Source: Mesorhizobium sp. (GTDB lineage: Bacteria > Pseudomonadota > Alphaproteobacteria > Rhizobiales > Rhizobiaceae). From it: 64,000 nt of DNA. This document shows positions 47,416 to 62,007 of this stretch, one piece after another. The first letter of the stretch is position 1. The number at the start of each line of letters is the position of its first letter. Made by a program: the position numbers and the translations under genes. Location: assembly GCF_016793485.1 (NCBI RefSeq), contig NZ_JAEULZ010000003.1:124001-188000 (forward strand). Reading direction: 5' to 3'. Under the pieces are notes generated by a model. It was not told the origin of the DNA and did no database searches. It saw nothing but the letters and a program-made list of their open reading frames with translations.

Positions 47416-49613
47416 GCGCGCCGCTCCGCGACTTTCGTGGCCACCTCTGTAGACGCCGGCTTCGACCGGATGGAGCGCCAGAGATAGAAAAGGCCCCGAT
47501 AGGTCTGGAACAGGGCAAGACGCAGGAAGCGCACAGTGCCCCTGATCAAACCCGGATTGCCACGCCGTGAAAGCTGGAATTGCTCCCATTGCCGGGAGTT
47601 GGCGAAGAGGAGGTCCGCGATCAGCCGATGGTGGTTCGCCTCACTCGGAAAATAATGGCAGCCGACGGCAATCGAGTCCGCCGTGCGCTCGAAGTTGCGG
47701 ACCGTTACGGGGAGCACCCCTTCTGTTCCGTCGGCAAACCTCTTGAACCGGAGTTCCGAGACATTGCCCTTGGCGAACTCGTCCATGCCCGCACCGAACA
47801 CCAGCACGCGCGCGCCGTTGACGGAGACATCCTCGATCGTGCCCTTGAGCCACTGATTTCCGATCTTGAAATCGCAACGCCTGCTCACCTTGACGCGGCG
47901 AGACGCGGCCTTCTCTCCGCGTTCCGAAACGACGCCGAGGGCGCATCCGGCAATGATGAGGTTTATGATGTTCCATCCCCCGACGACCAGGGTGACGTCG
48001 GCTTTGAACGGTTCGGCATAGACCTTGTAGACCGTCATGGCGACGCCGAGCACAAGCACGCCGAATATGATGAAGAACGGCATGCCGATCTCAGAGATGC
48101 GGCTGGTCGCGATGGATTCGTCCTTGGCGGTCACCTTGAATGTAGGCTTGCGCGGATTGACGATGACGGAGACGACGGCGGGCAGCAGGTGGACCGTCTG
48201 CACATACTCATAGAGTTCCGATATCCACGGCCAGCGGAACGCACCGTAGAGATAATTCTGCATCATCAGGTTCACGATCATGTAGGTGAGCGTGTAGGCA
48301 AGAAACTCGCCGCCTGAAGCCGTGAATATCTGCAGGTCAAAGAACAGGTAAAAAAGCGGCGCGATGAGAAAGATCGTGCGCGGGAACGGGAACAGCCAGA
48401 ACAGTGTCGACGAGGCGTAGCAGAGGCGCTGCGCCAGCGAGAGGCCTCGCTTCATAGGCGGGAACCGGAAGCGCAGGATCTGCATCATGCCCTGCGCCCA
48501 GCGGCTGCGTTGGCCTATGAAGCTGGCGAATGTCGCCGGCTGCAACCCCGCAATCAGCGGCTTGTCGACATAGATGCTGTTCCAGCCACGCGAATGCAGC
48601 TCGACCGCCGTCTCGCAGTCCTCGGTGATCGAAATGCCGCTGAAGCCGTCGGTTTCCATAAGCGCCCCGCGGCGCAGCACGGCGGCAGAGCCGCAGAAGA
48701 ACGACGCGTTCCACTTGTCCAGCCCACGCTGGATGACGCCATAGAACATCTCGTTCTCGGATGGCATTTTCTCGAAGGTGCGCAGGTTGCGCTCCACCGG
48801 GTCGGGATTGAGGAAGAAGTGCGGCGTCTGCACGAGGAAAAGACGCGGATCCTCGCCGAAGTATCCGACGGTTTCCTGCAGGAAATCGCGCGCGGGCGCA
48901 TGGTCGGCGTCGAACACCGCGACGAGCTCCCCACGCGAATGAAGCAGACCGTTGTTGAGGTTGCCTGCCTTGGCATGCTCGTTGCGATCGCGCGTCAGGT
49001 AGATGACGCCAAGGTCGGCTGCCAGCTTCTGCAATTCGGCATGCCGGCGCTCAGCAGCATTGGCTTCGCCGATCTTCTCGGAGTTTCGTTTCTGGAGCGT
49101 CCCGCCATCATCGAGCAACCAGACCGTCAGCTTGTCCGGCGGATAGTCCATGGCCTTGGCGGCGGCCATCGTGTTGGCCAGAAGCTCCGGCTCCTCATTG
49201 TAGGTCGGGATGAAGACGTCGACGGAAGGGAGGTCGTCATCAGCAGACCTTACCCGGGCGGGGCGCGGGGCCAGCGGTTGGGCGACGACGAAAAGGCTGA
49301 GCGCCAGCATGAGCACGCTGTACATCTCGGCCAGGTAAAGCAGGAATCCGGGAATGAAGTTTTCGGGTTGATTGAGCGGCGGCAGGGTCGATGTCGAGCG
49401 CCAGTAGACATAGCGCATGACGATCGCCGTACCGAATGCGAGAGCGATCAGCCTCCAGATGCCGTCGGGTCGCAGCAGTTTCAGGATCATCATTGCGAAC
49501 AGCACGGACATGCCGGCAACGAGCTGGGTCTCCAGGCTGATGGGCAGAGTGATCAGCATGATGACCATCGCCGAAGCGAGAGCCCAAAGAACGATCATCA
49601 TGAGTTTCTGCAT
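47412..49613 (-). CDS. bcsA: Cellulose synthase catalytic subunit BcsA
   Basis: 733 aa. Several membrane helices at both ends of a family 2 glycosyltransferase domain: LLDDGGTLQ, FDADHAPARDFL, SITEDCETAV and the processivity motif QRSRWAQGM. The C-terminal PilZ domain has the arginine motif (SRRVKVSRRC) and DVSVNGARV, matching D/N-x-S-x-x-G, so activation by cyclic di-GMP is expected. It polymerises UDP-glucose into cellulose and extrudes it. It is the first gene of bcsA-bcsB-bcsZ-TPR, with coupled overlaps throughout. Confidence 0.95.
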   Translation of the reverse strand: MQKLMMIVLWALASAMVIMLITLPISLETQLVAGMSVLFAMMILKLLRPDGIWRLIALAFGTAIVMRYVYWRSTSTLPPLNQPENFIPGFLLYLAEMYSVLMLALSLFVVAQPLAPRPARVRSADDDLPSVDVFIPTYNEEPELLANTMAAAKAMDYPPDKLTVWLLDDGGTLQKRNSEKIGEANAAERRHAELQKLAADLGVIYLTRDRNEHAKAGNLNNGLLHSRGELVAVFDADHAPARDFLQETVGYFGEDPRLFLVQTPHFFLNPDPVERNLRTFEKMPSENEMFYGVIQRGLDKWNASFFCGSAAVLRRGALMETDGFSGISITEDCETAVELHSRGWNSIYVDKPLIAGLQPATFASFIGQRSRWAQGMMQILRFRFPPMKRGLSLAQRLCYASSTLFWLFPFPRTIFLIAPLFYLFFDLQIFTASGGEFLAYTLTYMIVNLMMQNYLYGAFRWPWISELYEYVQTVHLLPAVVSVIVNPRKPTFKVTAKDESIATSRISEIGMPFFIIFGVLVLGVAMTVYKVYAEPFKADVTLVVGGWNIINLIIAGCALGVVSERGEKAASRRVKVSRRCDFKIGNQWLKGTIEDVSVNGARVLVFGAGMDEFAKGNVSELRFKRFADGTEGVLPVTVRNFERTADSIAVGCHYFPSEANHHRLIADLLFANSRQWEQFQLSRRGNPGLIRGTVRFLRLALFQTYRGLFYLWRSIRSKPASTEVATKVAERRA

Positions 49614-49819
49614 TTTCGGGCCCTTTACCAGCGCCCCTGACGCCCGGCCTGTAGCCGAGCCCGGAATCCCGCGGTGAGCTTCGCCCCTCCAAGCCCCGCC
49701 ACGCGACCCCTGACAAAGGGTGCTCGCATATGAAACGGCAGATCAAACCGTTACGGTCCCACCGAACAGGAACATGGTTAACAAAGCCCTAACGGGAGCC
49801 CTGGCATCCGTTTTTCTGG

Positions 49820-50836
49820 CTAGTTGCAGGCGGTTTGCGCAGCGCCCGGCTGGCAGGGCGGGGCCGGGACCAGCGGTACGGTCTGCCGGGAAGCGGCAGC
49901 GCCCGCTGCTGACGACGCCACCGAATCGCCAGGCGGAGGCGGAACCACAGGTCCGACCGGGGCTGGCAATTGCGCAGGCGTCTGCTGAGCGGTCGAGGAT
50001 GAAGATGCCGTCCTGGCGGCGGCTTGCCTTGTCGGCTGCGGCTCCTCGCTTACCGTTTCGAAGCGGGACGCACTGATCGGATAGATCGGTGCGCCCGGCC
50101 TGCCGAGCGTTTCGTCAGGCGGCAGGGGTTCGCCGAAAGGATTCCAGTTCCTGTCCTTGAACGAAGCGCTGATCGTGTAGCCGTACATCGACTGGAGCAG
50201 GCGCTGCTCGGAAGCCGTCTCGTCACACAGCCGGAGGCGCACCTGAATGGATCCCTTGTTGCCGATCCATGTCTGGGCGAACCCTGTCGACGTTATCCTC
50301 TGCCAGCCATAGAAGCAGGTGTCGCCGCCGCTGGTGCGTCCGACCGCATAGCCGAAAGCTCCATACTTGTTCTGGACGAAATAGGACGACGTGCGCATCC
50401 GCACGCCCGGAAACAACTCCCGCATCTCGGCCTGCACGTTCTTCGCCGGCAGGTAGCCGGGACGCAGGCCCTTGCCGCCCCCGAGCGACGTCTCGACCGG
50501 GCCGAAAATCTGGATGCGCAACATGTTCTGGCCGGACGTTCCGGCCGAGTTTGCAAGCAGGACATCCTGCTGTGTCGCATTGGAGTATCGCGTCTGCAAA
50601 ACCGCGGTTACCGCAGGGCCGCCGACTTCCGGCAAGGCGAATGCCTGTTCAGCAGGGACGATCGTGGTCTGGTCGTCGCTGCGAAGCGGCATGCCCTTGG
50701 AGCAGCCGGCAAGCAACGCCACTGCTACCATGCAAGCCACTCGTAGCGGGCTTGCGGATGCAGAATTCCCAAGGTCGGAACAAAACGCAGAACGAGGGCT
50801 GTTCGTCGCGGAACGTTCAACCGAATCAGTGCTCAT
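49820..50836 (-). CDS. bcsN: Cellulose biosynthesis protein BcsN (lipoprotein)
   Basis: 338 aa from ATG 50836; starts downstream (such as the TTG coding MGNSASASPLR) are plausible because about 30 residues precede the signal. Lipobox VALLAGC gives a lipidated Cys. The mature part (SNATQQDVLLANSAGTSGQN, FPGVRMRTSSYFVQNKYGAF and CFYGWQRI) matches the rhizobial BcsN family; the C-terminal 90 residues are Pro/Ala/Gln-rich. It precedes bcsA by about 200 bases on the same strand, as in other rhizobial cellulose loci. Its exact role is unknown. Confidence 0.85.
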   Translation of the reverse strand: MSTDSVERSATNSPRSAFCSDLGNSASASPLRVACMVAVALLAGCSKGMPLRSDDQTTIVPAEQAFALPEVGGPAVTAVLQTRYSNATQQDVLLANSAGTSGQNMLRIQIFGPVETSLGGGKGLRPGYLPAKNVQAEMRELFPGVRMRTSSYFVQNKYGAFGYAVGRTSGGDTCFYGWQRITSTGFAQTWIGNKGSIQVRLRLCDETASEQRLLQSMYGYTISASFKDRNWNPFGEPLPPDETLGRPGAPIYPISASRFETVSEEPQPTRQAAARTASSSSTAQQTPAQLPAPVGPVVPPPPGDSVASSAAGAAASRQTVPLVPAPPCQPGAAQTACN

Positions 50837-50960
50837 GCAGCACAAATTATTTGATTAGCGCCGTTCGACAAGGAAACTGTCGAAGTGTTTACGCGATCAG
50901 ATCCTGGAATGACCGGTCGCTGTAGGGAATATGCAGCCCTGATAGGATTGAAAACACCCG

Positions 50961-51755
50961 CTAGCGCAACGCGGTTGCGATCGCACCCCCGTCGACCGTG
51001 AGGACGGCGGCGTTGACCTTGTCCATCTGCGCGAGGTGCAGGAAGGCGTCGGCGACATCGCTTGCGCTGACTTCAACGCCGAGCAGGTTGCCCGACATAT
51101 AGGCGTCCGGGCTGAGGCCGCGCGCGGCGGCGCGCTCGACGATCATCCGGTCCGTCATAAGGCCGGAGCGTATCCGCCCCGCATTGACGCCATTGCAGCG
51201 GATGCCTTCATGGCCGTGATCCAGCGCATATTGCTTCATCAGCGCCAGTGTGGCCGCTTTTGGCAGGCCATAGGGACCGAAATCCTTGCCGGGATTGACC
51301 GACTGGTTGGAGATATTGAAAAGGATAGTGCCACCCCTGCCCTGCCTGCGGAAAATCTTCAGTGCAGCCTGGCTGGCGAGATGATGGCCGAAGAAATTCA
51401 GGTCGAAGCTGCGCTTGAGGTCGTCAACGGCGAGATCGCCGATGGCGCCCTGTGGAGCCGAACCTGCGTTTGAGACGAGGATATCGAGGCCGCCTAGCGC
51501 CCGGTCCAGCCCTTCGAACGCCTCGGTTACAGAGGCGGCGTCGGTGACGTCGCAAAATCCGGTATGGCAGCGAAGTTCCTTGCCGAGTTCGCCCAGCAGC
51601 GCCAAGTTGACGTCCAGCGCCGAGACCTTCGCCCCGGCGCTCATGAACGTCCGCGCGATCTCTCGACCGATACCGCTGGCGGCACCGGTGACCGCCACGA
51701 GGCGGCCCTCCAGGGGAGCTGAGTATACCTGCACGGAGGTCGCCGGGCTGTTCAT
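50961..51755 (-). CDS. Short-chain dehydrogenase/reductase
   Basis: 264 aa from ATG 51755; the longer open frame upstream is antisense-like and overlaps the aldolase gene. Classical SDR: cofactor motif TGAASGIG (about 20-27), NAG in LVSNAGSAPQG, catalytic Ser in NISNQS and Y-x-x-x-K in PYGLPKA. An Asp follows beta-2 (ALDVN), favouring NAD. It is the last gene of the ten-gene carbohydrate operon, four bases after the LsrF-type gene. It may oxidise a sugar alcohol to the keto compound used by DhaK/L. The substrate is not shown. Confidence 0.87.
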   Translation of the reverse strand: MNSPATSVQVYSAPLEGRLVAVTGAASGIGREIARTFMSAGAKVSALDVNLALLGELGKELRCHTGFCDVTDAASVTEAFEGLDRALGGLDILVSNAGSAPQGAIGDLAVDDLKRSFDLNFFGHHLASQAALKIFRRQGRGGTILFNISNQSVNPGKDFGPYGLPKAATLALMKQYALDHGHEGIRCNGVNAGRIRSGLMTDRMIVERAAARGLSPDAYMSGNLLGVEVSASDVADAFLHLAQMDKVNAAVLTVDGGAIATALR

Positions 51756-51759
51756 AGCG

Positions 51760-52647
51760 TCAGGCCGCCTTCTTCTGTTCGAAGTCCTTGAAGAGCGCAT
51801 AGGCCTGGTCCGGTCGCTCGTTGTCGTGAACCACCGCCTGCAGCGCCTGCAGCATGGCCGACGGGCTCGACGACTGGAACACGTTGCGGCCCATGTCGAC
51901 GCCGGCAGCGCCCTGGTCGATCGCCTGCCAGGCCATTTCGAGCGCCTCGCGCTCCGGCAGCTTCTTGCCGCCGGCGATGACGATCGGCACCGGGCAGCCA
52001 AGGACGATCTTCTCGAAACCCTCCTCGACATAATAGGACTTCACGAACTGCGCGCCGATCTCGGCAGCGATGCGCGTGGCGAGGCCAAAATAGCGGGCGT
52101 CGCGCACCATGTCCTTGCCGACGCCCGTCACCGCCATCGTCGGGATGCCGTAGCGCGTGCCGGTGTCGATCAGCTTCACGACGTTGGAGATCGACTTGTG
52201 CTCGTATTCGGCGCCGACATAGACCTGAGCGGCCATGGCGACCGCGCCAAGGCGGATCGCATCGTCGATGTCGACAGCGACGAGTTCATTGGAGAGTTCG
52301 GTCAGGATCGAGTTGCCGCCGGAACAGCGCAGCACGACAGGCTTGTTCACCTCGGGCGGGATCACCGAGCGCAGTGCACCGCGCGTGCACATCAGGACAT
52401 CTGCATGTTCAGCGAGCGGCGCGATCGTCAGGTCCATGCGTTCCAGCCCGGTGGTCGGGCCCTGGAAGTAGCCATGGTCGAAGGCGAGCATGACGGTGCG
52501 GCCGCTGGCCGGATTGAAGATGCGCGACAGCCGCGCCTTCATGCCCCAGTCGTGATGTGCCGCGCCCTTGAGGAAGAAGCGGCTGGTGTCGGCCGGACGG
52601 CCCTGGCCCCAGTCCTTGCCGTCCTTGATGTCGTCCAGATCGGCCAT
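51760..52647 (-). CDS. lsrF: LsrF-type class I aldolase/thiolase
   Basis: 295 aa, very close to E. coli LsrF throughout: [69 protein letters not shown] and [18 protein letters not shown]. The Schiff-base Lys position in [12 protein letters not shown] is kept. E. coli LsrF cleaves the phosphorylated autoinducer-2 product with coenzyme A to dihydroxyacetone phosphate and acetyl-CoA. Here lsrK, lsrG and the Lsr transporter are absent and DhaK/DhaL replace the kinase, so the physiological substrate may differ. Confidence 0.9.
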
Positions 52648-52674
52648 GGTCGTATCCTCTTTCGTACCTTGTTT

Positions 52675-53307
52675 TCAGTTCGTCTGCGCGTAGTCGCGCA
52701 TTGCGGTCAGGATCAGCGAGATGGAGATCGCGCCGGGGTCGGGGTGGCCGACACTGCGCTCGCCGAGCGAGCGCGCCTTGCCTGTCGTAGCAACCATCGC
52801 CTTGGAAGCCTCGACACCCTGCAACGCACCATCCACCGCGGCAGCGGTTGTCGCCTGTAGCCCATCTGCCGAAGCCGCGCGGGCGGCACGGGCCGCGGGG
52901 GCCAATGCATCGACCATCGTCTTCTGGCCCTCGGTGACGCCGCCGCGCTTCAACACGGCGGCAAGGCCTTCCTCGAGAAAGGCAGCGAAGCCCGCTCCGT
53001 CGATGACGTCGCCGGGAATGCCTTTCGAGCCGGCCCGGAACAGCGTGCCGAAGACGGCACCGGCAGCGCCTCCCGTGTTCGACATGATCGCCATGCCGGT
53101 CGCCTTGAACGGCGCATCGACCGTTTCCGGCGCTTCGCCATTCAGCGCTTCGAGCGCCGCTTCAAAGCCCCGCCGCATGCCGATGCCGTGGTCGCCATCG
53201 CCGATGGCGAGATCGGCGTCGGTGAGCGTATCGGTCCGGTCAATCATGTAGTTCGAGACCGCGACCAGCATGTCGCGAGCCTGAGTGGCGTCGAGTGTGT
53301 CGCTCAT
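52675..53307 (-). CDS. dhaL: Dihydroxyacetone-kinase-type subunit DhaL
   Basis: 210 aa, all-helical ATP/ADP-binding subunit. The Mg-binding Asp cluster is intact in LAIGDGDHGIGMRRGFEA (about 31-48), and SNTGGAAGAVFGTLFRAGSK and RSVGHPDPGAIS are characteristic. It follows dhaK by ten bases. No dhaM (phosphotransferase partner) is in the window, so whether it uses ATP directly or a distant DhaM is open. Confidence 0.9.
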   Translation of the reverse strand: MSDTLDATQARDMLVAVSNYMIDRTDTLTDADLAIGDGDHGIGMRRGFEAALEALNGEAPETVDAPFKATGMAIMSNTGGAAGAVFGTLFRAGSKGIPGDVIDGAGFAAFLEEGLAAVLKRGGVTEGQKTMVDALAPAARAARAASADGLQATTAAAVDGALQGVEASKAMVATTGKARSLGERSVGHPDPGAISISLILTAMRDYAQTN

Positions 53308-53317
53308 CGTCTCGCCC

Positions 53318-54325
53318 TCACATCCGGGAGTAGCCGAGCGATTCCGCCGGCAGGTCGAGATAGTGCTTCAGTTCGTCGTCGAGCCTCAGCAGCGTCACCG
53401 AGAAGCCCGCCATCTCCTGCACCGTCAGCCACGTGCCGACATCCGTGCGATGAACCTTGATGCCTTCACGATCGAGGATTTGGCGGATGCGACGGTTGAC
53501 GATCAGCATCTCCATCATCGTGGTCGCGCCGAGATTGTTGATCAGCAGAGCGACCTCGTCGCCGCGCTTGAACGGCAAGTCGGACAGCAACTTTTCCATG
53601 ATCTGGTCGGCGACGGTATCGGCGGGGGCGATCTTCTGGCGCGACACGCCGGCCTCGCCATGCGCGCCCATGCCGATCTCGATCTCATCGTCGGCGAGTT
53701 CGAAGGTGAGCTTGCCGGTTTCGGGGATGGAACCTGCCGCAACCGCTATGCCAATCGAGCGGAGGTTGGCGACTGCTTTGCGGGCAATGCGCTCGACCTC
53801 ATCCAACGTATCGCACTCGGTCGCTGCGCCACCGGCGATCTTGATCGCATAAAGATCGCCCGCGACGCCACGGCGGTCATGCATGCGCTCGGGCGGTGCT
53901 GCTGCGACATCGTCGGTGACGCGCACTGTCCGTACCTCGATGCCCTCGTCCTCGGTGAGGATTTCCGAGGCCATGTCGAAGTTCATGTTGTCGCCGGCGT
54001 AGTTGCCATAGAGGAACAGCACGCCTTTGCCACGATGCACGGCCTTGGCCGCTTCCACGATGATATCAGGCGAAGGTGCCGCGAAAACCTGGCCGCAGGC
54101 CGCGCCGTCGCCCATGTTCTTGCCGACGAAGCCATGGAAAATCGGTTCGTGACCGCTACCGCCGCCGATCAGCAGCGCGACCTTGCTCTCCGGCAGGTCG
54201 GTGCGCACGATCGCGGCGTGCTTGTCCAGCTTGCGCAGGCGCCCGTCATTGGCGAACACCAGTCCTTCAAGCATCTCGGCGACGACCTTCTTGGGGTCGT
54301 TGAGAATCTTCTTCGGATTAGCCAA
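53318..54325 (-). CDS. dhaK: Dihydroxyacetone-kinase-type subunit DhaK
   Basis: 335 aa from a TTG start at 54325 with a strong AGGAGGAG upstream; the protein then begins MANPKKILNDP as in the family. Glycine-rich loop LIGGGSGHEPIFHGFVG, the substrate-binding His in EIGMGAHGEAGV and the ending with VNRRIRQILDREGI. DhaK binds a short keto compound covalently through that His, and DhaL delivers the phosphate. Members also phosphorylate erythrulose and related ketoses, so the real substrate here is uncertain. It overlaps the upstream 67-aa gene by eight bases. Confidence 0.9.
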   Translation of the reverse strand: MANPKKILNDPKKVVAEMLEGLVFANDGRLRKLDKHAAIVRTDLPESKVALLIGGGSGHEPIFHGFVGKNMGDGAACGQVFAAPSPDIIVEAAKAVHRGKGVLFLYGNYAGDNMNFDMASEILTEDEGIEVRTVRVTDDVAAAPPERMHDRRGVAGDLYAIKIAGGAATECDTLDEVERIARKAVANLRSIGIAVAAGSIPETGKLTFELADDEIEIGMGAHGEAGVSRQKIAPADTVADQIMEKLLSDLPFKRGDEVALLINNLGATTMMEMLIVNRRIRQILDREGIKVHRTDVGTWLTVQEMAGFSVTLLRLDDELKHYLDLPAESLGYSRM

Positions 54326-54521
54326 TTTTCTCCTCCTGATCTTGTGGCCGTGCGTCCGGCACATGGTCGAGGATCATGAACAGCACGACGCCTGCAAGCA
54401 AAACCGGAAAGCCGAACACAAATAAATCGTGGGTAAAAGGCTGGCAGAGCATCGCGAAGCCGATCAGGATCAGGCCCGACGCAATGCGATAGAACCAGGC
54501 CTTGGTGAGGTAGGCGCTCAT
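54318..54521 (-). CDS. Small two-helix membrane protein of the transporter operon, 67 aa
   Basis: 67 aa with two hydrophobic segments (about 12-29 and 31-50) and a polar C-terminus. It starts within the end of the upstream ATPase gene (four-base overlap) and overlaps dhaK, so it is translated with them. A small membrane protein also accompanies the rhizobial glycerol ABC importer (GlpU, DUF2160-like), which has the same two-ATPase layout. Its role in transport is unknown. Confidence 0.75.
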   Translation of the reverse strand: MSAYLTKAWFYRIASGLILIGFAMLCQPFTHDLFVFGFPVLLAGVVLFMILDHVPDARPQDQEEKIG

Positions 54522-55618
54522 GCCGGTTTCCCTCCCAGGTGAGAGATGCGCGCACCGGTCGTTGCGTCAAACAGGAAGCCGGAGCCGATGCGGAAGGAGC
54601 AGGCGTCGCCCTGTTTGAAGGACTGTTCGGATGGCAGGACCTTGCGGAACGATCCGGCGTCCGAATTGACCTGCACGGCGCGCTCGAAGCCGCGATTGTC
54701 GACCGCGTAAATCGTGCCGGAGTTCGCACCCGCGCCGCCCACTGCCTCGACATCGATATCCTCCGGCCAGGCGCCGAGGCGGATCTTGCCGCTTCCCAGC
54801 CGCGTTTCGCCGAAGGAGGCGAGCGGCAGCGCCTGCGCGCCACCGGCAAGCCGCACCGATCCGTCCACGATCGTCGCATCGAAGAATGCCATGGAGGGGC
54901 TGCCGATGAGGCGGCCGACGGTGACATTCGCCGGCAACGCGATGATCTCCTCGATGGTGCCTGTCTGTTGCATGACGCCGCCGTCGATGATCGCGAGGCG
55001 GTCAGCGATCGCGATCGCGCCGTGATAGTCATGCGTGGCGTAGAGCATGGTCGACCGATGCTGGCGATGGATCTGCTTCAGCTCCGCCCGCAGCCCTTCG
55101 CGGAGCTTGAGGTCGAGCGCCGACAGAGGTTCGTCAAGCAGGAACATCTTGGGACGCCGCACCAGAGCGCGGGCGATGGCGACACGCTGCCGTTCGCCAC
55201 CGGACAGTGTATCGACGTCACGGTCGAGCAGATGCGAGATGCGCAGCAGCTCGGCCGTGCGCCCGACACGTGTTCTGATCTCGGCCTCCTCCTCGCGATA
55301 GGTCGGCGAGCGCAGGGCGAAGGCGATGTTGTCCTTCACGTCGAGCACGGGCAGCAGATTGAATCCCTCGAAGACGATGGAGACGTCGCGCGCCGACGGA
55401 TCGATGTCCGTGACGTCTCGACCGCCCAGCGAAACCTTCCCTGCATCGAGCCTTACGAGCCCGGCCGAAGCGAGGAGCGTGGTGCTCTTGCCGGCCCCGG
55501 TCGGCCCCAGCAACGCCAGGATCTCGTTATCCGGAACCTCTAAATCGAGCCCGCGCAATGCGCGCTTTGCGCCATAGGTTTTCTTCAGCCCTTCGAGTCG
55601 CAACATGGGAGCGGTCAT
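54518..55618 (-). CDS. Sugar ABC transporter ATPase 1, with Glu in the Q-loop
   Basis: 366 aa: ABC domain (about 1-235) plus a C-terminal TOBE-like regulatory domain. Walker A GPTGAGKST, signature LSGGERQR, Walker B MFLLDEPLSALD and H-loop ATHDYHG are standard. The Q-loop reads IVFEGFNLLP with Glu84 in place of the nearly invariant Gln. Together with the next ATPase it should form an asymmetric heterodimer. Two-ATPase importers of this layout include the rhizobial glycerol transporter GlpST; the substrate here is inferred to be a polyol or ketose from the downstream genes. Confidence 0.87.
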   Translation of the reverse strand: MTAPMLRLEGLKKTYGAKRALRGLDLEVPDNEILALLGPTGAGKSTTLLASAGLVRLDAGKVSLGGRDVTDIDPSARDVSIVFEGFNLLPVLDVKDNIAFALRSPTYREEEAEIRTRVGRTAELLRISHLLDRDVDTLSGGERQRVAIARALVRRPKMFLLDEPLSALDLKLREGLRAELKQIHRQHRSTMLYATHDYHGAIAIADRLAIIDGGVMQQTGTIEEIIALPANVTVGRLIGSPSMAFFDATIVDGSVRLAGGAQALPLASFGETRLGSGKIRLGAWPEDIDVEAVGGAGANSGTIYAVDNRGFERAVQVNSDAGSFRKVLPSEQSFKQGDACSFRIGSGFLFDATTGARISHLGGKPA

Positions 55619-56706
55619 GCTGCGTCTCCCGTCACGCGAAGGCCCGTTTCGGCGTCGAAGAAGAGAAGACCATCCGGCACGAAATGTACGGCATTGGCCG
55701 CACCGCCCGTGGTCTTGCGCTTGTCGACACCTTGATAGGGAACGCCGTCGATCGAGAACATGAAGAAGCGTTCACGCCCAACGGAGAAAACATCGTCCAC
55801 GGCAAGCGGGAAAGCGGTCGGGTCGCTGCCCGGTTCGACGAGATGCACGTTGAGCGGCCGTACTCCGAGCTTGAGTTTCCGGCGGCTGGCTACCGCCCAT
55901 TCGGGAATGAGATTGCTGGCCGGCGTGAGCGTCACGTTGCTGCCGCCGAGCCTGAGGCCGCCGTCGACAGGCGTAAGGTCGATCAGGTTCATCGACGGCG
56001 AGCCGATAAACTGGCCGGCAAAGACATTCTCCGGTTCGAGGAAGATGCGGTCGGGCTCGCCGACCTGCACGATGCGCCCGTCGCTCATCAGCACGATGCG
56101 GTCCGCCAGGCTCATCGCCTCGCGCTGGTCGTGCGTGACGTAGATCGTGGTGACCCCGAGCTCGCGCTGCAGATGACCGAGCTCCCAGCGCATTTCCTCG
56201 CGGAATTGCTCGTCGATCGCCGACAATGGCTCGTCAAGCAGCAGCACGGCAGGATTGCGGATCACGGCGCGCGCCAGCGCCACTTTCTGGCGGGCGCCCG
56301 GCGGCAGTGCCGAGGGATAACGCTTGAGCTCGTCGCCCAAGTTGAAGATGCCGGTTACCCAGTCGAGCTTGCGAGCGATCTCGGCGCGGGGAATGCCGCG
56401 CGCCTTGAGCGGGAAGATGATGTTCTCGCGGATGTTGAGATGCGGGTAGAGCGAGACGAACTGGAACACCATGGCGATGTTGCGTTCGCTTGCCGTGAGG
56501 TCGTTGACCCGCTGGCCGTCGAACAGCACGTCGCCGGAAGTCGCCTGCACCAGACCGGCGATGCAGCGCAGCGTTGTCGTCTTGCCGCAGCCGGACGGTC
56601 CCAAATAAACGACGAACTCACCGTTCTTGACCGTCAGGTTGACCTTGTCGACGGCCTTGAAGGCGCCGAACTCGATCGACAGGTCCTTGAGTACGATCTC
56701 GGCCAT
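55615..56706 (-). CDS. Sugar ABC transporter ATPase 2, with a degenerate signature motif
   Basis: 363 aa, MalK/UgpC-like: ABC domain plus C-terminal regulatory domain. Walker A GPSGCGKTT, Q-loop MVFQFVSLYPHL, Walker B VLLLDEPLSAID and H-loop VTHDQREAM are standard. The signature, however, is L-P-P-G-A at residues 134-138 (SALPPGARQKVALAR) instead of LSGGQ. This would spoil the ATP site formed with the Walker A of ATPase 1 while leaving the other site complete. It overlaps the next gene by four bases and the permease by one. Confidence 0.87.
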   Translation of the reverse strand: MAEIVLKDLSIEFGAFKAVDKVNLTVKNGEFVVYLGPSGCGKTTTLRCIAGLVQATSGDVLFDGQRVNDLTASERNIAMVFQFVSLYPHLNIRENIIFPLKARGIPRAEIARKLDWVTGIFNLGDELKRYPSALPPGARQKVALARAVIRNPAVLLLDEPLSAIDEQFREEMRWELGHLQRELGVTTIYVTHDQREAMSLADRIVLMSDGRIVQVGEPDRIFLEPENVFAGQFIGSPSMNLIDLTPVDGGLRLGGSNVTLTPASNLIPEWAVASRRKLKLGVRPLNVHLVEPGSDPTAFPLAVDDVFSVGRERFFMFSIDGVPYQGVDKRKTTGGAANAVHFVPDGLLFFDAETGLRVTGDAA

Positions 56707-57623
56707 CAGTACCGCTCGCCCAGTTTCTGCAGGTGACGCACGAGGATCATCGACAGGCCGATGATGATGACGAGCAGGATGACCGCCAGCGCCGAGGCCT
56801 CTCCGGTATAGAAATAGCTGAACGCCGTCTTGGCGACCGCAAAGGATACCGTCTCTGTGGCCGTGCCGGGACCGCCGCCGGTCAACGCCACAAACAGGTC
56901 GTACTGTTTGAAGCTGTCGATCAGCCGCAGGATGAGCGCGATGAACAGGACCGGGGCCGCCATCGGCAAGGTGATGCGGAAGAACTTATAGGTGGGGCTC
57001 GCGCCATCCACCTCGGCCGCTTCGTAGATCGTCTCGGGAATGCCGCGGAACGCAGCAGTCGCGAGCAGGATGATGAATGGCGTCCACATCCACGTGTCGG
57101 CAGCGGCCGCCGCCCAGAGCGCTGCATTGGCCTGGCCGAGCCAATCCACCTTCGGCAGCCCCACCGAATAGAGCAGGAAGTTCACGATGCCCCATTCGGA
57201 GTTCAGCATATAGCGCCACAGGAAGCCGACGACGACCGGCGACAGCATCATCGGCATCATCAGCGCCGTGAAGACGATGTCGCGCCCCTTGAAGTTCTTC
57301 TGCAACTGGTAGCCGACGAAAATGCCGATCAGCATCTGCAGCGTCACGCAGATGAAGACGAACTTTCCAGTGAAGACGAAGCGTTCCCAGAGCTGGGGGT
57401 CGGACAGCAGGAATTCGTAGTTCCGCAGGCCGATCGGCTTCATTGTCGTCTGGCGCAGCGCCGAGAAGTTGAAGAACGAATAATAGACCAGCGAGAAGAT
57501 CGGGTAGGCGACCATGAACAGCAGGATCGCCAGCGTTGGCGACAGGAAGCCGAAGATCATCAGACGACCGGACGACTGGCGCTTGAGCTCGGCCTGACGA
57601 GCGGTGTGGGATTGCGTGCTCAT
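56706..57623 (-). CDS. Sugar ABC transporter permease, MalF-type
   Basis: 305 aa with six hydrophobic segments. The ATPase-coupling loop (EAA motif) reads ETIYEAAEVDGASPTYKFFR (about 205-224). The N-terminal 20 residues are polar and cytoplasmic. It lies between the second permease and ATPase 2, overlapping the ATPase start by one base. It forms the pore with the MalG-type partner. Confidence 0.9.
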   Translation of the reverse strand: MSTQSHTARQAELKRQSSGRLMIFGFLSPTLAILLFMVAYPIFSLVYYSFFNFSALRQTTMKPIGLRNYEFLLSDPQLWERFVFTGKFVFICVTLQMLIGIFVGYQLQKNFKGRDIVFTALMMPMMLSPVVVGFLWRYMLNSEWGIVNFLLYSVGLPKVDWLGQANAALWAAAAADTWMWTPFIILLATAAFRGIPETIYEAAEVDGASPTYKFFRITLPMAAPVLFIALILRLIDSFKQYDLFVALTGGGPGTATETVSFAVAKTAFSYFYTGEASALAVILLVIIIGLSMILVRHLQKLGERY

Positions 57624-57627
57624 CGGA

Positions 57628-58500
57628 TCACCTCCTGCCCAGCACGCCGAAGGTCATGCCCATCAGGAGATGCTTTCGGATCAGGTAGAAGAAGATGAGC
57701 ACCGGGATGATGAGTACGACGCCGGCGGCGCAGATCTGCGTCCACTCGAGGCCGGTGGCGCCGGAGGCCGCCGAAATCTTGACCGGCAGCGTCTTGGCCT
57801 GCGTCGTGGTCAGGATCGAGGCAAAAGCGAACTCGTTCCACGCAAAGATGAAGCAGAAACCGGCTGTCGCCGCGATGCCGCCCTTCACCATTGGGAGCAC
57901 CAAGCGCGTAAAGGCGTACATCCGGGTATAGCCGTTGACGATGGCGATCTGCTCGACCTCTTTCGGCACGCCGTCGAAGAACCCCTTCATGATCCATGTG
58001 GCGAGGCCGACATTGGCGAAGATGGAAACGAGCGTGAGGCCGAAGCGCGTGTCGGCAAGGCCGAGCCGCGCGAACATGAGGTGATAGAACACCAGCACCG
58101 CGACCGGCGGCAGCATGCGGGTCGACAGGACGAAGAACATGAAGTCGCCCTTGCCGATGAAATTGAAGCGCGAGCAGACATAGCCCGCCAGCGTACCGAA
58201 GGCGACGGCCAGCGTCGTGCCGCTTACGGAGACGATGATGCTGTTGACGAGCGAGTCGAAGACGCCGACCGAGGAAGCGCTGTTTGCGGCCGCGCCGACG
58301 CCGAAGACGCTCTGGTAGCCGGAGAAATCAGGCGTGAAGAAGAGCTTTGGCGGCATGGCGAAAAGGTCCATGCGGCTCTTGAACGACGACAGCACCAGCC
58401 AGAAGACCGGCCCGATATTGTATAGCGTGTAGACCGCGAGCAGGCCGAAGATCAGCCAGCGGCTTACGAGGTCAAACGTGGTCGTCCGGGAGGGGCTCAT
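57628..58500 (-). CDS. Sugar ABC transporter permease, MalG-type
   Basis: 290 aa with six hydrophobic segments; the coupling loop is EVEQIAIVNGYTRMYAFTRL (about 190-209). In it the usual EAA is EQIA, a mild deviation. It is separated from the binding-protein gene by 104 bases with two hairpins and from the next permease by four bases. Confidence 0.9.
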   Translation of the reverse strand: MSPSRTTTFDLVSRWLIFGLLAVYTLYNIGPVFWLVLSSFKSRMDLFAMPPKLFFTPDFSGYQSVFGVGAAANSASSVGVFDSLVNSIIVSVSGTTLAVAFGTLAGYVCSRFNFIGKGDFMFFVLSTRMLPPVAVLVFYHLMFARLGLADTRFGLTLVSIFANVGLATWIMKGFFDGVPKEVEQIAIVNGYTRMYAFTRLVLPMVKGGIAATAGFCFIFAWNEFAFASILTTTQAKTLPVKISAASGATGLEWTQICAAGVVLIIPVLIFFYLIRKHLLMGMTFGVLGRR

Positions 58501-58531
58501 GCGTCAGCCTGTGCAAAAAATGCTCGGAAGC

Positions 58532-58593
58532 GGCGTCCGGCCGCAATGCATCCGGACGCCCTTGGGAGGACCGGGCACGGAAAACGTGCCCGG
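58532..58593 (-). promoter_or_regulatory. Two perfect hairpins after the binding-protein gene
   Basis: GGCGTCCGG / CCGGACGCC (58532-58560, nine-base stem) and CCGGGCACG / CGTGCCCGG (58571-58593, nine-base stem with a GAAAA loop) lie just past the binding-protein stop codon (58605). No T run follows on the minus strand. They probably stabilise the binding-protein message relative to the rest of the operon. Confidence 0.7.
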
Positions 58594-58604
58594 AACCATA
58601 ACCA

Positions 58605-60014
58605 TCACTCGACGGGAACGACCTTGTCCTGGCCGACCGGCGAGATGTTCTGGTCCGGAACCTCAGGCGTGGTCTCGCCACGCTTGATCTCATAGCCGGC
58701 GCGCTCGAGCGTGCGCTCGTTCTTCTCGGCAGCATCGGACAGCGCCTGCTGGACCGTCTTGGTGCCGGCTGCGGCGGCAGAGACTTCCTGCTGCAGCTCG
58801 TCGAGCAGGATCGGATACTCCGGCAGGTGCCAGTAGTCGTTCAGGTAGGCCAGCGCCTTCGAGAACTGGGCGTTGTAAGAGTTCAGGTTCTGCCAGTCGG
58901 GGCTCTCCAGAACCGACTTCAGGCCTGTCTGGCAGACAGCGGCATAACGCTTCTGCTGTTCGGGCTGGAAGTACCACTCCATGAACTTGGTCAGCTCGGG
59001 GAGCTTCTTGGAATATTTGTTGATGCCCATGCCCTGACCACCGACCGAGAACTGACGGCGGAACTTGCCGTCACGGCCGACGGCGCCGGGAAGAACCGCG
59101 AAGCCGACCTTGTCGGCGAACTTCGAGACCTTCGGATCGGCGTTCGATCCGTTGAAGTAGAACCACTGCATGGCCATCGCCACCTGACCCTGCTGGATCG
59201 CGGTGTTGACCTCGTCGAAGCCCCAGTTGGTCGAACCGGGAGGTCCGAACTTGAACATGTCGACATAGGCCTGCACGCCGTCGACCGACGCCGGCGAGTC
59301 CAGATAGCCCTTCACCTCGAACGTCTCGGGATTGTAGAGCTCACCGCCGAACGACCAGAGGAAGGAGTTCGACGCCGTCGTCGCGAAGTCATAGTCGCGG
59401 CCGCCCATCTGCGCCCAGCCATAGAGGCCCTGGTCGGGACGGGTGAAGAATTCGGCAACTTCCTTGGCTTCCTGGTATGTCTGCGGCACGGCGAGGTCGC
59501 GGCCGTACTTGGCCTTGAACGCCTCCTGCTCCTTCGGGTCCTCGAAGAGGTCCTTGCGGTAGGTCAGGCCGTAGGCGTCCTGGTTGGCAGGCAGGCCGAA
59601 GAACTCGCCCGAACCATCAGGATATTCGCCGTAGCGCGACAGCGAGGCCGGCGGGAAGATGTCCGCCTTGAGATATTCCGACTTGTCGAAGATGTCGTTG
59701 ATCTTGACGGCGTGCGACGCGAATTCCGCGGTCGACTGGCTGTCCCACATGGCGAAATCGAAGGCATCGCCCTGGATGGCGAATTCGGATGCGATCTTGT
59801 CGTGCCACTGCGGGCCATACGGCACCAGGGCGGGAACGATCTTCACGCTTTTATCGGGATAGTCCTTGGAAATTTCCACCAGCGCGTCGGCGCAGGTTCC
59901 GGCATGCCAGACGAATGTAAGGTCGACGGCGCGAGCGGCGCCCGAGCTTGCGGCAAGGCCCGCCGCAAGCGCTGCGGCCGACGTCAAGAGACGCGTGCGC
60001 AAAGGCTTGTTCAT
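58605..60014 (-). CDS. Sugar ABC transporter substrate-binding protein (family 1)
   Basis: 469 aa with a signal peptide (about 1-29, ARAV). Family 1 extracellular solute-binding protein: DAFDFAMWDSQSTAEFASHA, FFGLPANQDAYGLTYRKDLF, GYLDSPASVDGVQAYVDMFK and the conserved GGQGMGINKYSKKLPELTKF. It is the first and probably most abundant product of the ten-gene operon. Its ligand is unknown; the downstream DhaK/DhaL, LsrF and dehydrogenase genes suggest a polyol or short ketose. Confidence 0.9.
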   Translation of the reverse strand: MNKPLRTRLLTSAAALAAGLAASSGAARAVDLTFVWHAGTCADALVEISKDYPDKSVKIVPALVPYGPQWHDKIASEFAIQGDAFDFAMWDSQSTAEFASHAVKINDIFDKSEYLKADIFPPASLSRYGEYPDGSGEFFGLPANQDAYGLTYRKDLFEDPKEQEAFKAKYGRDLAVPQTYQEAKEVAEFFTRPDQGLYGWAQMGGRDYDFATTASNSFLWSFGGELYNPETFEVKGYLDSPASVDGVQAYVDMFKFGPPGSTNWGFDEVNTAIQQGQVAMAMQWFYFNGSNADPKVSKFADKVGFAVLPGAVGRDGKFRRQFSVGGQGMGINKYSKKLPELTKFMEWYFQPEQQKRYAAVCQTGLKSVLESPDWQNLNSYNAQFSKALAYLNDYWHLPEYPILLDELQQEVSAAAAGTKTVQQALSDAAEKNERTLERAGYEIKRGETTPEVPDQNISPVGQDKVVPVE

Positions 60015-60389
60015 TGCATATCCTCCACTGGTTTCGCGGGGCGCCGGATCGCTGACCCAACCTCTCCTGCCCCTCGTTTCACCGTAGAAGCCATGTTAAA
60101 AAATATCAATAGAAAAGTTATTTTGACCAAAAATTTGCGTTATATTTCCCGAGAGGCCGAGGTCAAATATGCTGATAACATCGGCCGAAAGGAAACTGTG
60201 CTGCGGCGCAAAAAGGGGGAATTCGTCTTATATTGCGCGCTTTTCAGCACAATTTTTGAATACGGTTGTGTCCTCTCGACACATCGCGTCGCTGCATTGC
60301 AATATGGATTTTTTGATAAATTAACATATTTCTCTGGCGCAAGACGACAGTGTTGTTAAAAGTTAGAACAAGCTCGGGAGGAACGCACC
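60015..60389. promoter_or_regulatory. AT-rich divergent control region between the sugar operon and deoR gene
   Basis: 375 bases, strikingly AT-rich for this GC-rich genome (runs such as GTTAAAAAATATCAAT). TGTTAA occurs at 60094-60099 and 60354-60359 and its inverse TTAACA at 60321-60326. A TTTTGACC (60121-60128) faces a GGTCAAAT (60161-60168). These are candidate DeoR operator half-sites near both start codons. Both promoters must lie here. No gene is seen. Confidence 0.55.
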
Positions 60390-61175
60390 ATGGAAGAGGA
60401 TGATGCGCCGCAGATGTCGAAGGCCGACCTTCGAAGGTCGGAAATCATTCGCATCCTGATGGAAACAGGCTCGGCCCAGATCAAGGATCTGGCGGCGACG
60501 CTCAACGTGTCGCTGATGACCATCCACCGCGACCTCAACGACCTCCATGACCAGGGGCTGGTTCGGCGTATCCGCGGCGCTGTTTCAGCCGAAAAGTCGA
60601 TGCTGTTCGAGAGCAGCTACCTGTATCGCGCCCGTCAGCATGTCGACGAGAAAAGGCGGCTCGCCCGCGCCGCCGTCGCCCACATCGAGCCCGGCAACGC
60701 GGTGGTCTGGGACGACAGTTCGACAACCTTCCATGTCTGCGACTTCATCGAGCAGGTCACGCCCATAACCGTCATCACCAATGCCCTGCCGGTGATGGAG
60801 CAGTTGCGGGACAAGCAGGACGTCGATCTCATCGGCCTCGGCGGAAAATTCCACCGCGGCTACAACGGGTTCTTCGGCATGGCCTGCGAAAGGGCAATCC
60901 GATCCTACCACGTGGACGTGGCGCTTCTGTCAACGACGACAATCCAGGGAATGGCGCTATTCACCCAGGACGAGAATGTCGTCCGCACCAAGCAGGCAAT
61001 GATCGAAATTGCCCGGAAGAAGATCCTGATGGTGGACGAGAGCAAGTTTCATTTTTCCGCCCTGAACTACGTCGCCGACCTCAGCGTCTTCGATGTGGTC
61101 CTCGTTTCGAGCTCGGTCGACAAGTCGGTGGTCGAACGCATGACGCAGGCCGGCATCAAACCCGAACTGGTCTGA
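60390..61175 (+). CDS. DeoR-family transcriptional repressor
   Basis: 261 aa with GGGAGGAA before ATG. N-terminal DeoR helix-turn-helix (about 10-62, SEIIRILMETGSAQIKDLAA and SLMTIHRDLNDLHDQGLVRR) and a C-terminal sugar-phosphate sensor domain (about 85-255, with the phosphate-binding VVWDDSSTTFHVCDF, VITNALPV and DESKFHFSAL). DeoR proteins are usually released by a phosphorylated sugar intermediate, which would fit a product of DhaK/DhaL. It is divergent from the transport operon, its likely target, and co-directional with the second aldolase 37 bases on. Confidence 0.88.
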   Translation: MEEDDAPQMSKADLRRSEIIRILMETGSAQIKDLAATLNVSLMTIHRDLNDLHDQGLVRRIRGAVSAEKSMLFESSYLYRARQHVDEKRRLARAAVAHIEPGNAVVWDDSSTTFHVCDFIEQVTPITVITNALPVMEQLRDKQDVDLIGLGGKFHRGYNGFFGMACERAIRSYHVDVALLSTTTIQGMALFTQDENVVRTKQAMIEIARKKILMVDESKFHFSALNYVADLSVFDVVLVSSSVDKSVVERMTQAGIKPELV

Positions 61176-61212: not shown

Positions 61213-62007
61213 ATGTCTGAAGTAGGCAAGGCCCGCAGGCTCGCGCGGCTGTCGAACAAGCGTTCAGGGCGCATGCTTTGTGTTCCCCTGGACCACGGGA
61301 TGCAGGTAGGACCCGTAGCGGGAATCGCCGACCCGGCCCCGCTGATCGACATCGTGGTCGAGGCGGGCGTCGATTCGGTCATTGTCAGCCCCGGAATGCT
61401 GCAGCGTTACGGGAAAAGACTGGCGGATGGCCCTGCGGTGATCCTGCGTCTAGACCAGACGACCATGTGGCGACACGAAACGCCTACGGGGTACCCCGAT
61501 ACGCACAGCCGTCTCGTCGCCACGGTCGAGGAAGCGGTGCAGATGGGGGCCGATGCGGTCATCACCTACCTCTTCACCTGCAACAACCAGCCGATCGAAG
61601 AGACCAAGTCATTCGAGAACGCTGGCGCGGTCGCTGCTGCCTGCCGCAAATGGGGCATGGTCCATGTCATTGAGGCGATGGCGGCCAAGGGCGGTTTTGC
61701 CCGCGCCGACGACCCGGACATCGTGGCGCTCAACTGTCGCATGGCTGGCGAGCTGGGCGCGGACTGGTTGAAGACCGATTGGTGCGACCCCACTCGTTTC
61801 GCCGCCATCGCCAGGCAGTCGCTGGCACCTATTGCGGTAGCCGGCGGTCCGGCGCTTGGTACTTTGGCCGACACCGTTCGCTTCGCCAAAGCAGCAATCG
61901 GCAGCGGGGCCAAGGGGCTGATGTTCGGGCGAAATGTTTTCCAGCAGGCCGACGTGCCGGCGGCCCTGGCAAAGCTGACAAAGGTGGTTCACGGCAACGA
62001 CGGCTGA
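61213..62007 (+). CDS. Second class I aldolase of the FbaB/LsrF (DeoC/LacD) family
   Basis: 264 aa with GGAGTG upstream. A TIM-barrel class I aldolase: CVPLDHGMQVGPVAGI, the Schiff-base Lys in GADWLKTDWCD, and the phosphate-binding end PIAVAGGPALGTL and GLMFGRNVFQ. It is paralogous to the LsrF-type enzyme in the divergent operon but much more distant from E. coli LsrF. It is probably co-transcribed with the deoR gene. It may cleave or form a phosphorylated keto sugar; donor specificity for dihydroxyacetone phosphate is a guess from the family. Confidence 0.85.
   Translation: MSEVGKARRLARLSNKRSGRMLCVPLDHGMQVGPVAGIADPAPLIDIVVEAGVDSVIVSPGMLQRYGKRLADGPAVILRLDQTTMWRHETPTGYPDTHSRLVATVEEAVQMGADAVITYLFTCNNQPIEETKSFENAGAVAAACRKWGMVHVIEAMAAKGGFARADDPDIVALNCRMAGELGADWLKTDWCDPTRFAAIARQSLAPIAVAGGPALGTLADTVRFAKAAIGSGAKGLMFGRNVFQQADVPAALAKLTKVVHGNDG

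Follow-up and report, generated by a model that had tools for sequence, protein, structure and literature searches.

What does LsrF, an enzyme of autoinducer-2 (AI-2) breakdown, do in an operon with a sugar importer, a dihydroxyacetone-type kinase and a dehydrogenase? The question is raised by a 64,000-nucleotide stretch of the Mesorhizobium sp. genome (RefSeq assembly GCF_016793485.1, contig NZ_JAEULZ010000003.1, positions 124,001 to 188,000), hereafter the window. Ten genes on its minus strand (50961-60014) encode a solute-binding protein, two permeases and two ATPases of an ATP-binding cassette (ABC) importer, a small protein, DhaK, DhaL, LsrF and a short-chain dehydrogenase (SDR). The binding-protein gene is followed by 104 bases, and elsewhere the genes overlap by 1-8 bases or are separated by 4-27. 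The operon is real and conserved in other genomes, where its gene order is kept, so that the arrangement is not due to chance; the order and tight spacing given in the original prediction were thus confirmed. That prediction also read the genes as a complete pathway of import, oxidation, phosphorylation and cleavage to dihydroxyacetone phosphate (DHAP), which remains the best reading and is partly supported; it omitted the divergent DeoR-family regulator gene and the aldolase gene behind it, here named ald2.

From the gene set, the protein families and their conservation, the domain history of the SDR and the exchange of the LsrF slot between operons, all of them observed and described below, we infer the reactions, their order and the nature of a side group R, and we assign the resulting scheme a probability of about 0.36. 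Under a DeoR-type regulator, the CUT1 importer would take up a small ketose or sugar alcohol. DhaK/DhaL would phosphorylate the CH2OH group adjoining the ketone to give the ketose-1-phosphate R-CHOH-CHOH-CO-CH2OP, the SDR would oxidise C4 with NAD+ to the 3-hydroxy-2,4-dicarbonyl phosphate R-CO-CHOH-CO-CH2OP, and LsrF would split the latter with coenzyme A (CoA) into DHAP and the acyl-CoA R-CO-CoA; oxidation may also precede phosphorylation. With R = CH3 (a 5-deoxypentulose, or 1-deoxyxylulose oxidised first), the intermediate would be 3-hydroxy-2,4-pentadione-5-phosphate (P-HPD) and the product acetyl-CoA, and with R = H (a tetrulose) the product would be formyl-CoA; within the scheme, CH3 stands a little ahead of H. 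P-HPD is the LsrF substrate in AI-2 breakdown and is itself a 3-hydroxy-2,4-diketone phosphate, and 5-deoxyribulose-1-phosphate, formed by MtnK and MtnA, would be a single C4 oxidation short of it. For AI-2 breakdown, the relevant part of PMC7828210 gives DHAP and acetyl-CoA as the LsrF products.

The window LsrF is, by its sequence, a true member of the LsrF family. It is 72% identical to the E. coli enzyme, as the predicted close similarity implied, and scores well above the family cut-off (Table 1). K203, which we take to be the Schiff-base lysine, D57 and H58 belong to the 97 positions that are invariant in at least 101 of 102 LsrF proteins, and they are kept in the window LsrF. Family membership and the conserved active site both argue for the proposed cleavage. 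LsrF at 86% identity or more was found in 4 of 101 genomes in a family scan, and LsrF at E <= 1e-60 in 6 of 385 genomes in a class scan, the window's own genome being counted in each.

Three types of locus share the DeoR regulator and LsrF (L, G and C numbers are our labels for loci, genomes and contigs; G000 is the window's genome). Type A (the window, L009, L018, L154, L155, L232, L233, L248 and L249) combines the importer, small protein, DhaK, DhaL and LsrF with a lone SDR. In type B (L010, L011, L013, L017, L019, L156, L250 and L251) a class II aldolase/SDR fusion replaces the lone SDR, and type C (L012, L014, L015, L016 and L020) has the fusion together with a CUT2 importer, an FGGY kinase and a GlpD-like dehydrogenase. 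These lists may count one species twice; L010 and L250, whose contigs have equal lengths, are probably the same. The LsrF proteins of 16 type A-C loci form one clade (support 100) within an alphaproteobacterial set that mixes LsrFs from lsr operons and MtnK-linked LsrFs; all trees reported here are quick trees with SH-aLRT support only and contain some long branches. The presence of LsrF in loci found through LsrF is circular and was not counted, and the binding protein was used as the query instead. It is present in 12 of 247 family genomes (E <= 1e-150), all 12 contexts were inspected, and LsrF lies inside the operon in 10 of the 11 evaluable loci (7 type A, 3 type B), which favours a role for LsrF in the pathway; the contig of the twelfth, G089, stops within dhaL, so that this locus could not be evaluated. 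On contig C10 (22000-41000; L183), the window's own genome has a type C-like locus with an FGGY kinase, a GlpD-like dehydrogenase, a SorC/LsrR-like regulator, a CUT2 importer and another aldolase of the LsrF superfamily.

The neighbourhoods of LsrF genes bear on the role of the SDR. We tabulated 101 LsrF loci, comprising the best 80 of 582 relatives from a search of genome contigs, 20 from a second set and one Sagittula plasmid; some are duplicates and several end at contig edges. LsrK or LsrG is encoded near LsrF in 40 of them, and no SDR, class II domain, MtnK/MtnA, DhaK or GlpD was found in any of these 40. (One of the 40, L060 on a contig of a Caldithrix metagenome-assembled genome, has lsr genes 100% identical to those of E. 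coli K-12 and is assembly contamination.) Among the other 61, an SDR occurs in 31, a class II domain in 29 and an MtnK or MtnA match in 5. The SDR distribution (31/61 versus 0/40; Fisher's exact test 4e-9, uncorrected for relatedness) is in line with the scheme, and so is the position of MtnK and/or MtnA beside LsrF in L028, L040, L068 and L157. One of the five matches, in L011, is a distant kinase of 38% identity about 9 kb away, and the contig-edge MtnA of L043/L158 fell under the coverage cut and is uncounted. In the marine loci L029, L033, L042 and L044-L047, LsrF stands beside conserved unrelated genes that give no pathway clue. A supposed link to lactate dehydrogenase in L171 was discarded: the 1,274-residue protein near its LsrF and fusion matches helicase-associated domains only and gives no clue.

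By sequence comparison, the window SDR is an SDR half that has separated from a RhaEW-type fusion with a class II aldolase, as found beside MtnK and MtnA. The 264-residue protein consists of the SDR half only; the class II half, absent here, is present in the type B relatives. On contig C41 the same genome encodes a 684-residue fusion of this kind with a SorC/LsrR-like regulator, a CUT2 importer, MtnK and MtnA; the SDR half of this fusion shares 53% identity with the window SDR, compared with 31% for the SDR half of the type C fusion. In a tree of 54 SDRs, in all of which the YxxxK motif is conserved, the seven included from type A loci group as a single clade (100); it lies in a set of 27 (99), 13 of them MtnK/MtnA-linked fusions, and the rhamnose-locus fusions and the type B and C fusions fall outside that set. 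Of eight named plasmid contexts of relatives of the window SDR, six contain MtnK and/or MtnA (L186, L192, L193, L194, L198, L199) and two do not (L187, L191). This origin of the SDR supports the proposed C4 oxidation. Behind the MtnK/MtnA/fusion clusters of the Rhizobiaceae loci L192, L198 and, in part, L199 are split genes resembling transketolase/1-deoxyxylulose-5-phosphate synthase, followed in L192 and L198 by a RuBisCO-like protein, perhaps a further branch of methylthioadenosine salvage.

If the SDR performs the C4 oxidation, an lsr operon can do without an SDR, as its substrate is a diketone from the outset, and a cleaving enzyme (LsrF or the class II half) suffices. The MtnK/MtnA route would then need both an SDR and a cleaving enzyme; the window operon has an SDR and LsrF. 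The mirror image of the window arrangement exists. The lsr operons of Paracoccus aminophilus, Alloyangia pacifica, Ensifer canadensis and Sinorhizobium meliloti GR4 (L196, L197, L200 and L202) carry a class II protein of about 413 residues, in no case with an SDR half, at the lsrF position. All four encode LsrK, R, A, C, D, B and LsrG (the GR4 LsrA matched in two pieces); the P. aminophilus LsrG is 44% identical to that of E. coli, and the other three are 60-77% identical to the P. aminophilus protein. The P. aminophilus class II protein shares 50% identity with its counterpart domain in the MtnK-linked fusion of the window's genome. A search with LsrB gave 12 of 247 family genomes, with all 12 contexts inspected: a full class II gene stands beside lsrB in 7 (within L208-L217), L216 has only a 51-residue match, L210 has none and L211 is cut off. 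At E <= 1e-60, LsrF was found neither in these seven genomes nor in G075 and G909 (G081, with L211, was left out). The class II half alone thus fills the LsrF slot in 11 lsr operons, four found through the class II protein and seven through LsrB, as would be expected if either enzyme cleaves the diketone. In a tree of 59 class II domains these 11 proteins form one clade (97), joined at 95 by the MtnK/MtnA-linked fusions L040 and L194 and a Sagittula protein (L189), and the histidines that presumably make up the metal site are kept in 59 of 59. The L189 locus, on Sagittula plasmid p3, has no SDR; it comprises a CUT2 importer, a SorC-like regulator, GlpD, an FGGY kinase, LsrF and a class II protein standing alone. 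Counted by locus, there would be no dehydrogenase for AI-2, one for a ketose or aldose (types A and B and the MtnK type), one (GlpD) in L189 and two (GlpD and SDR) in type C, whose input, to go by this count, could be an alditol.

The genome of the window has its own lsr operon (contig C29, 24650-43660; L206) with LsrK, LsrR, LsrG and LsrA, C, D and B. Neither this operon nor that of the genus-mate G886 (L207) contains lsrF or a class II gene, and in both genomes the LsrF of the type A operon is the only one, an observation in keeping with the assigned LsrF function. The absence of lsrF in S. meliloti may have been noticed earlier.

The closest published biochemistry concerns RhaEW of rhamnose catabolism, the SDR half of which is homologous to the window SDR; the window has LsrF in place of the class II half, and the rhamnose-locus fusions form a separate clade. 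According to the RhaEW section of PMC3870299, no DHAP and no lactate are released from L-rhamnulose-1-phosphate when NAD+ is omitted, and NADH supports no activity; the authors conclude that the aldolase activity requires the dehydrogenase. Oxidation before cleavage would directly explain the reported need for NAD+ in DHAP release, and the requirement is what an oxidation-first order predicts. We tentatively suggest, at odds clearly below even, that LsrF and the RhaE-type class II domain are interchangeable, both cleaving 3-hydroxy-2,4-dicarbonyl phosphates made by the accompanying SDR. The fusions of rhamnose catabolism and MtnK/MtnA salvage would then oxidise first and cleave second, to an acid or acyl-CoA and no free aldehyde, and the routes for AI-2, 5-deoxyribose and other sugars would meet at such diketone phosphates.

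Several observations weigh against the oxidation-first scheme. No listed partner accompanies LsrF in 23 of the 61 loci without LsrK or LsrG, and an SDR without a class II domain occurs only in type A (4 of the 61). Fusions lack a neighbouring LsrF in L179, L187, L191 and L201, as the fusion at the C41 locus of the window's genome does, and types B and C retain both the class II half and LsrF, so that replacement of one by the other is not simple. The strongest point comes from the window's own genus. In G067 (contig C13, 583000-602000; L247) the same operon is present, with a binding protein 94% identical to that of the window, and neither this operon nor the rest of the genome encodes LsrF. 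About 125 bases separate dhaL there from the SDR gene (product 75% identical to the window SDR), behind which stand genes for a 571-residue fused Dak kinase, a TIM and an RpiB-like protein, each about 40 bases apart or less; the RpiB-like protein scores 253.2 bits on the model for D-erythrulose-4-phosphate isomerase, above its cut-off of 240. The SDR is thus kept there without LsrF. A class II/SDR fusion elsewhere in G067 (L234) could cleave in trans, which is a weak defence of oxidation first. In G950, TIM and RpiB-like genes lie convergently about 1.1 kb beyond a type A operon.

Read most plainly, the G067 locus encodes a pathway for a tetritol or erythrulose in which the SDR is the polyol dehydrogenase, and the fate of the intermediate there fits a tetrulose phosphate. 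Pathways of this kind use Dak-type kinases and TIM-like and RpiB-like isomerases (family NF051858), and they resemble the window operon in the importer, SDR and DhaK-type kinase; the window has LsrF where the isomerases stand, no tetrulose-phosphate isomerase was found in its operon by Pfam and NCBIfam searches, and the isomerases of its genome are on another contig. Applied to the window, a C4 polyol or erythrulose would be imported, the SDR would act on the polyol, DhaK/DhaL would form erythrulose phosphate, and LsrF would release DHAP and a one-carbon unit or have a side role; in G067, the isomerases would lead to erythrose-4-phosphate. Besides G067 and G950, this route is favoured by a DhaK/DhaL pair in the window's genome that adjoins TIM and a D-erythrulose-4-phosphate isomerase (contig C46, 137000-155000; L181; 249.3 bits, cut-off 240), and whose DhaK is the closest paralogue of the window DhaK in that genome (49%). 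The front end of type C (FGGY kinase, GlpD-like dehydrogenase) recalls erythritol genes, and one distant solved relative of the binding protein binds sorbitol. The tetritol route does not account, however, for the retention, in 10 of 11 importer loci, of an LsrF with every residue typical of its family, for the descent of the SDR from MtnK-linked fusions or for a substitution in the pocket of the window DhaK relative to the TIM-linked DhaK of the same genome. We consider it less likely than not, but only a little less probable than oxidation first; the G067 locus raised it from clearly improbable and lowered the oxidation-first scheme from 0.5 to its present value; our confidence in the LsrF/class II interchange fell slightly. 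As for the substrate, the history of the SDR points to a 5-deoxypentose and the genus-mate to a tetrose.

The substitution concerns Ser80 (E. coli numbering), presumably a pocket residue of dihydroxyacetone kinases. All 11 aligned operon DhaKs have Ala at this position, where E. coli and all three paralogues of the window's genome have Ser. The resulting FAAP motif, which G067 has too, was seen in 8 further loci, of which one is probably L010 over again. His56, Asp109 and His218, which we take to be the catalytic residues of DhaK, are kept in 11 of 11. The kinase thus shares with dihydroxyacetone kinase the catalytic His/Asp/His and the two-subunit form, but has FAAP in place of FTSP, and its operon is without DhaM. 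A plain dihydroxyacetone or glycerol operon is not our first choice, given LsrF and the changed DhaK pocket. On contig C41 (8000-26000; L180) of the same genome there is a paralogous CUT1 importer (35-46% identity) with DhaL, a phosphoenolpyruvate-utilising enzyme I-like protein and DhaK, probably a dihydroxyacetone system of the phosphotransferase type.

A cleavage without prior oxidation is a less probable alternative. DhaK/DhaL would again give a ketose-1-phosphate, LsrF would be a simple DHAP aldolase working without CoA, and the SDR would convert the released aldehyde, as proposed for RhaEW. LsrF does belong to the DeoC/class I aldolase superfamily, and SDR-class II fusions without LsrF exist. 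Two published statements likewise support this order and count against ours: the RhaEW authors take the SDR for a lactaldehyde dehydrogenase in an enzyme described as aldolase plus dehydrogenase (PMC3870299, in the part on the RhaEW assays, which describes no assay with lactaldehyde itself), and the class II aldolase of the 5-deoxyribose pathway releases acetaldehyde (PMC6079011). Set against them are the lack of DHAP from RhaEW without NAD+ in the same part of PMC3870299, the class II-only proteins that take the place of LsrF in lsr operons, whose intermediate is a diketone, and the redundancy of an aldolase LsrF wherever the class II half is retained. The G067 locus lowered this alternative as well, and we regard it as improbable.

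We consider a variant AI-2 pathway, in which an AI-2-like diketone is imported and DhaK/DhaL stands in for LsrK, highly improbable. The identity of LsrF speaks for it, as does the missing cleaving enzyme in the genome's lsr operon, whose AI-2 breakdown the operon LsrF may therefore finish. But LsrACDB, LsrK and LsrG are already present on contig C29, the operon importer is of another class, AI-2 needs no dehydrogenase, and G067 has the operon without LsrF. G074, G038, G019 and G946 have the operon with LsrF and, like G067, no LsrB at E <= 1e-60 (G946 and G038 are 87-88% complete), so that their operon LsrF hardly serves AI-2; this halved our estimate. The original prediction, which offered an AI-2 variant or a polyol/deoxy-ketose route, is better supported in its second part, since the separate lsr operon and the four LsrB-less relatives speak against a private AI-2 pathway. 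Its claim that lsrK, lsrG and the Lsr importer are missing is right for the operon, where Pfam and NCBIfam searches found none of LsrK, LsrG, LsrR and LsrACDB, and wrong for the genome, where all are on C29. An apiose/apulose route was rejected, as the locus has no isomerase or transketolase and no paper linking LsrF to apulose was found in the openly licensed literature.

Compared with known systems, the operon under the oxidation-first scheme would combine parts of several. With the E. coli lsr operon and its LsrK-LsrG-LsrF route it shares the near-invariant LsrF residues and, as predicted products, DHAP and an acyl-CoA, but it has another importer, kinase and regulator and a dehydrogenase in place of LsrG. 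The DHAP shunt for 5-deoxyribose disposal (MtnK or DrdK, MtnA or DrdI, and a class II aldolase; PMC6079011 and PMC12632272) likewise leads from a phosphorylated ketose to DHAP, and the window SDR descends from fusions that occur next to MtnK/MtnA; searches of the window operon found no MtnK, MtnA or class II aldolase, and DhaK/DhaL is there instead. LsrF is not mentioned in PMC12632272 and PMC3870299, nor lsr in PMC6302742. No paper on such an LsrF/DhaK/importer cluster was found in the openly licensed literature, in agreement with the prediction that no characterised pathway has this exact gene set. If the scheme is true, an enzyme of quorum-signal removal would serve sugar breakdown more generally, by-products of S-adenosylmethionine may reach DHAP and acetyl-CoA by a route free of aldehydes, the NAD+ need of RhaEW for DHAP release would be explained, rhizobia such as S. 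meliloti would have a candidate for the final step of their AI-2 breakdown, and the annotation of the large "bifunctional aldolase/short-chain dehydrogenase" gene family could be corrected. Even if the substrate is a tetrulose handled by the tetritol route, LsrF and two isomerases have been exchanged within one genus, which makes the use of LsrF directly testable.

Table 1. Features of the LsrF operon and its divergent neighbours (window coordinates)
Feature	Position	Strand	Evidence
CUT1-type ABC importer, solute-binding protein, 469 aa	58605..60014	-	PF01547 99.2 bits
ABC permease 1, MalG/UgpE-like, 290 aa	57628..58500	-	PF00528
ABC permease 2, UgpA-like, 305 aa	56706..57623	-	PF00528
ABC ATPase 1, MalK/UgpC-like, 363 aa	55615..56706	-	PF00005, OB_MalK
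ABC ATPase 2, MalK/UgpC-like, 366 aa	54518..55618	-	PF00005
Small protein, 67 aa, two membrane helices by eye	54318..54521	-	conserved in relatives
DhaK-type ketose-binding kinase subunit, 335 aa, TTG start	53318..54325	-	Dak1 379.5 bits
DhaL nucleotide-binding kinase subunit, 210 aa	52675..53307	-	TIGR02365 172.9 bits, cut-off 138.3
LsrF, 3-hydroxy-2,4-pentadione-5-phosphate thiolase family, 295 aa	51760..52647	-	NF006081 500.7 bits, cut-off 297
Short-chain dehydrogenase (SDR), 264 aa	50961..51755	-	best NCBIfam matches: C-terminal halves of PRK08324 fusions
Divergent DeoR-family regulator	60390..61175	+	DeoRC 140.2 bits
ald2, second DeoC/LsrF-superfamily aldolase, 264 aa, behind deoR	61213..62007	+	PF01791 120.3 bits
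Divergent promoter region, deoR / binding protein	60015..60389	.	AAATGTTAAA shared by relatives; two-mismatch copies in the window

The start of DhaK is most likely the TTG codon at 54325, which is preceded by a strong ribosome site, and that of the SDR most likely ATG 51755, the mechanical open reading frame start at 52031 being discarded. The importer gives no ligand by homology: the binding protein belongs to no NCBIfam family, and its solved relatives in the PDB are distant sugar binders (best MalE3, 8.8e-20; next a sorbitol-binding protein, 5.4e-16). Permeases 1 and 2 score under the NCBIfam cut-offs of all 14 and all 22 families listed, respectively. In its components, one binding protein, a pair each of permeases and ATPases and a small membrane protein, the window importer resembles the rhizobial glycerol importer of the GlpSTPQUV type, a likeness of gene content. 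The 67-residue protein matched nothing in Pfam and NCBIfam searches and has a counterpart, 51-77% identical, in 12 of 12 other type A and B loci of two fetched sets.

Wherever the retrieved stretch is not truncated, loci of types A, B and C all carry the divergent deoR. The sequence AAATGTTAAA is present exactly in 9 of 15 promoter regions (10 of types A/B and 5 of type C, with L154, L156, L233 and later loci left out) versus 1 of 1,500 shuffled regions. As a DeoR operator shared by the window it was rejected and is not claimed here, the window holding only copies with two mismatches, a level reached by 559 of 1,500 shuffles. The ald2 product scores under the LsrF and ADH-synthase cut-offs; its gene follows deoR in 6 of 12 other type A/B loci of the two fetched sets, where some of the remaining stretches end earlier, and also in L247, L250 and L251. 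Directly downstream of the operon (47412-50845), the window carries a cellulose synthase-like gene and BcsN, which are apparently unrelated to it.

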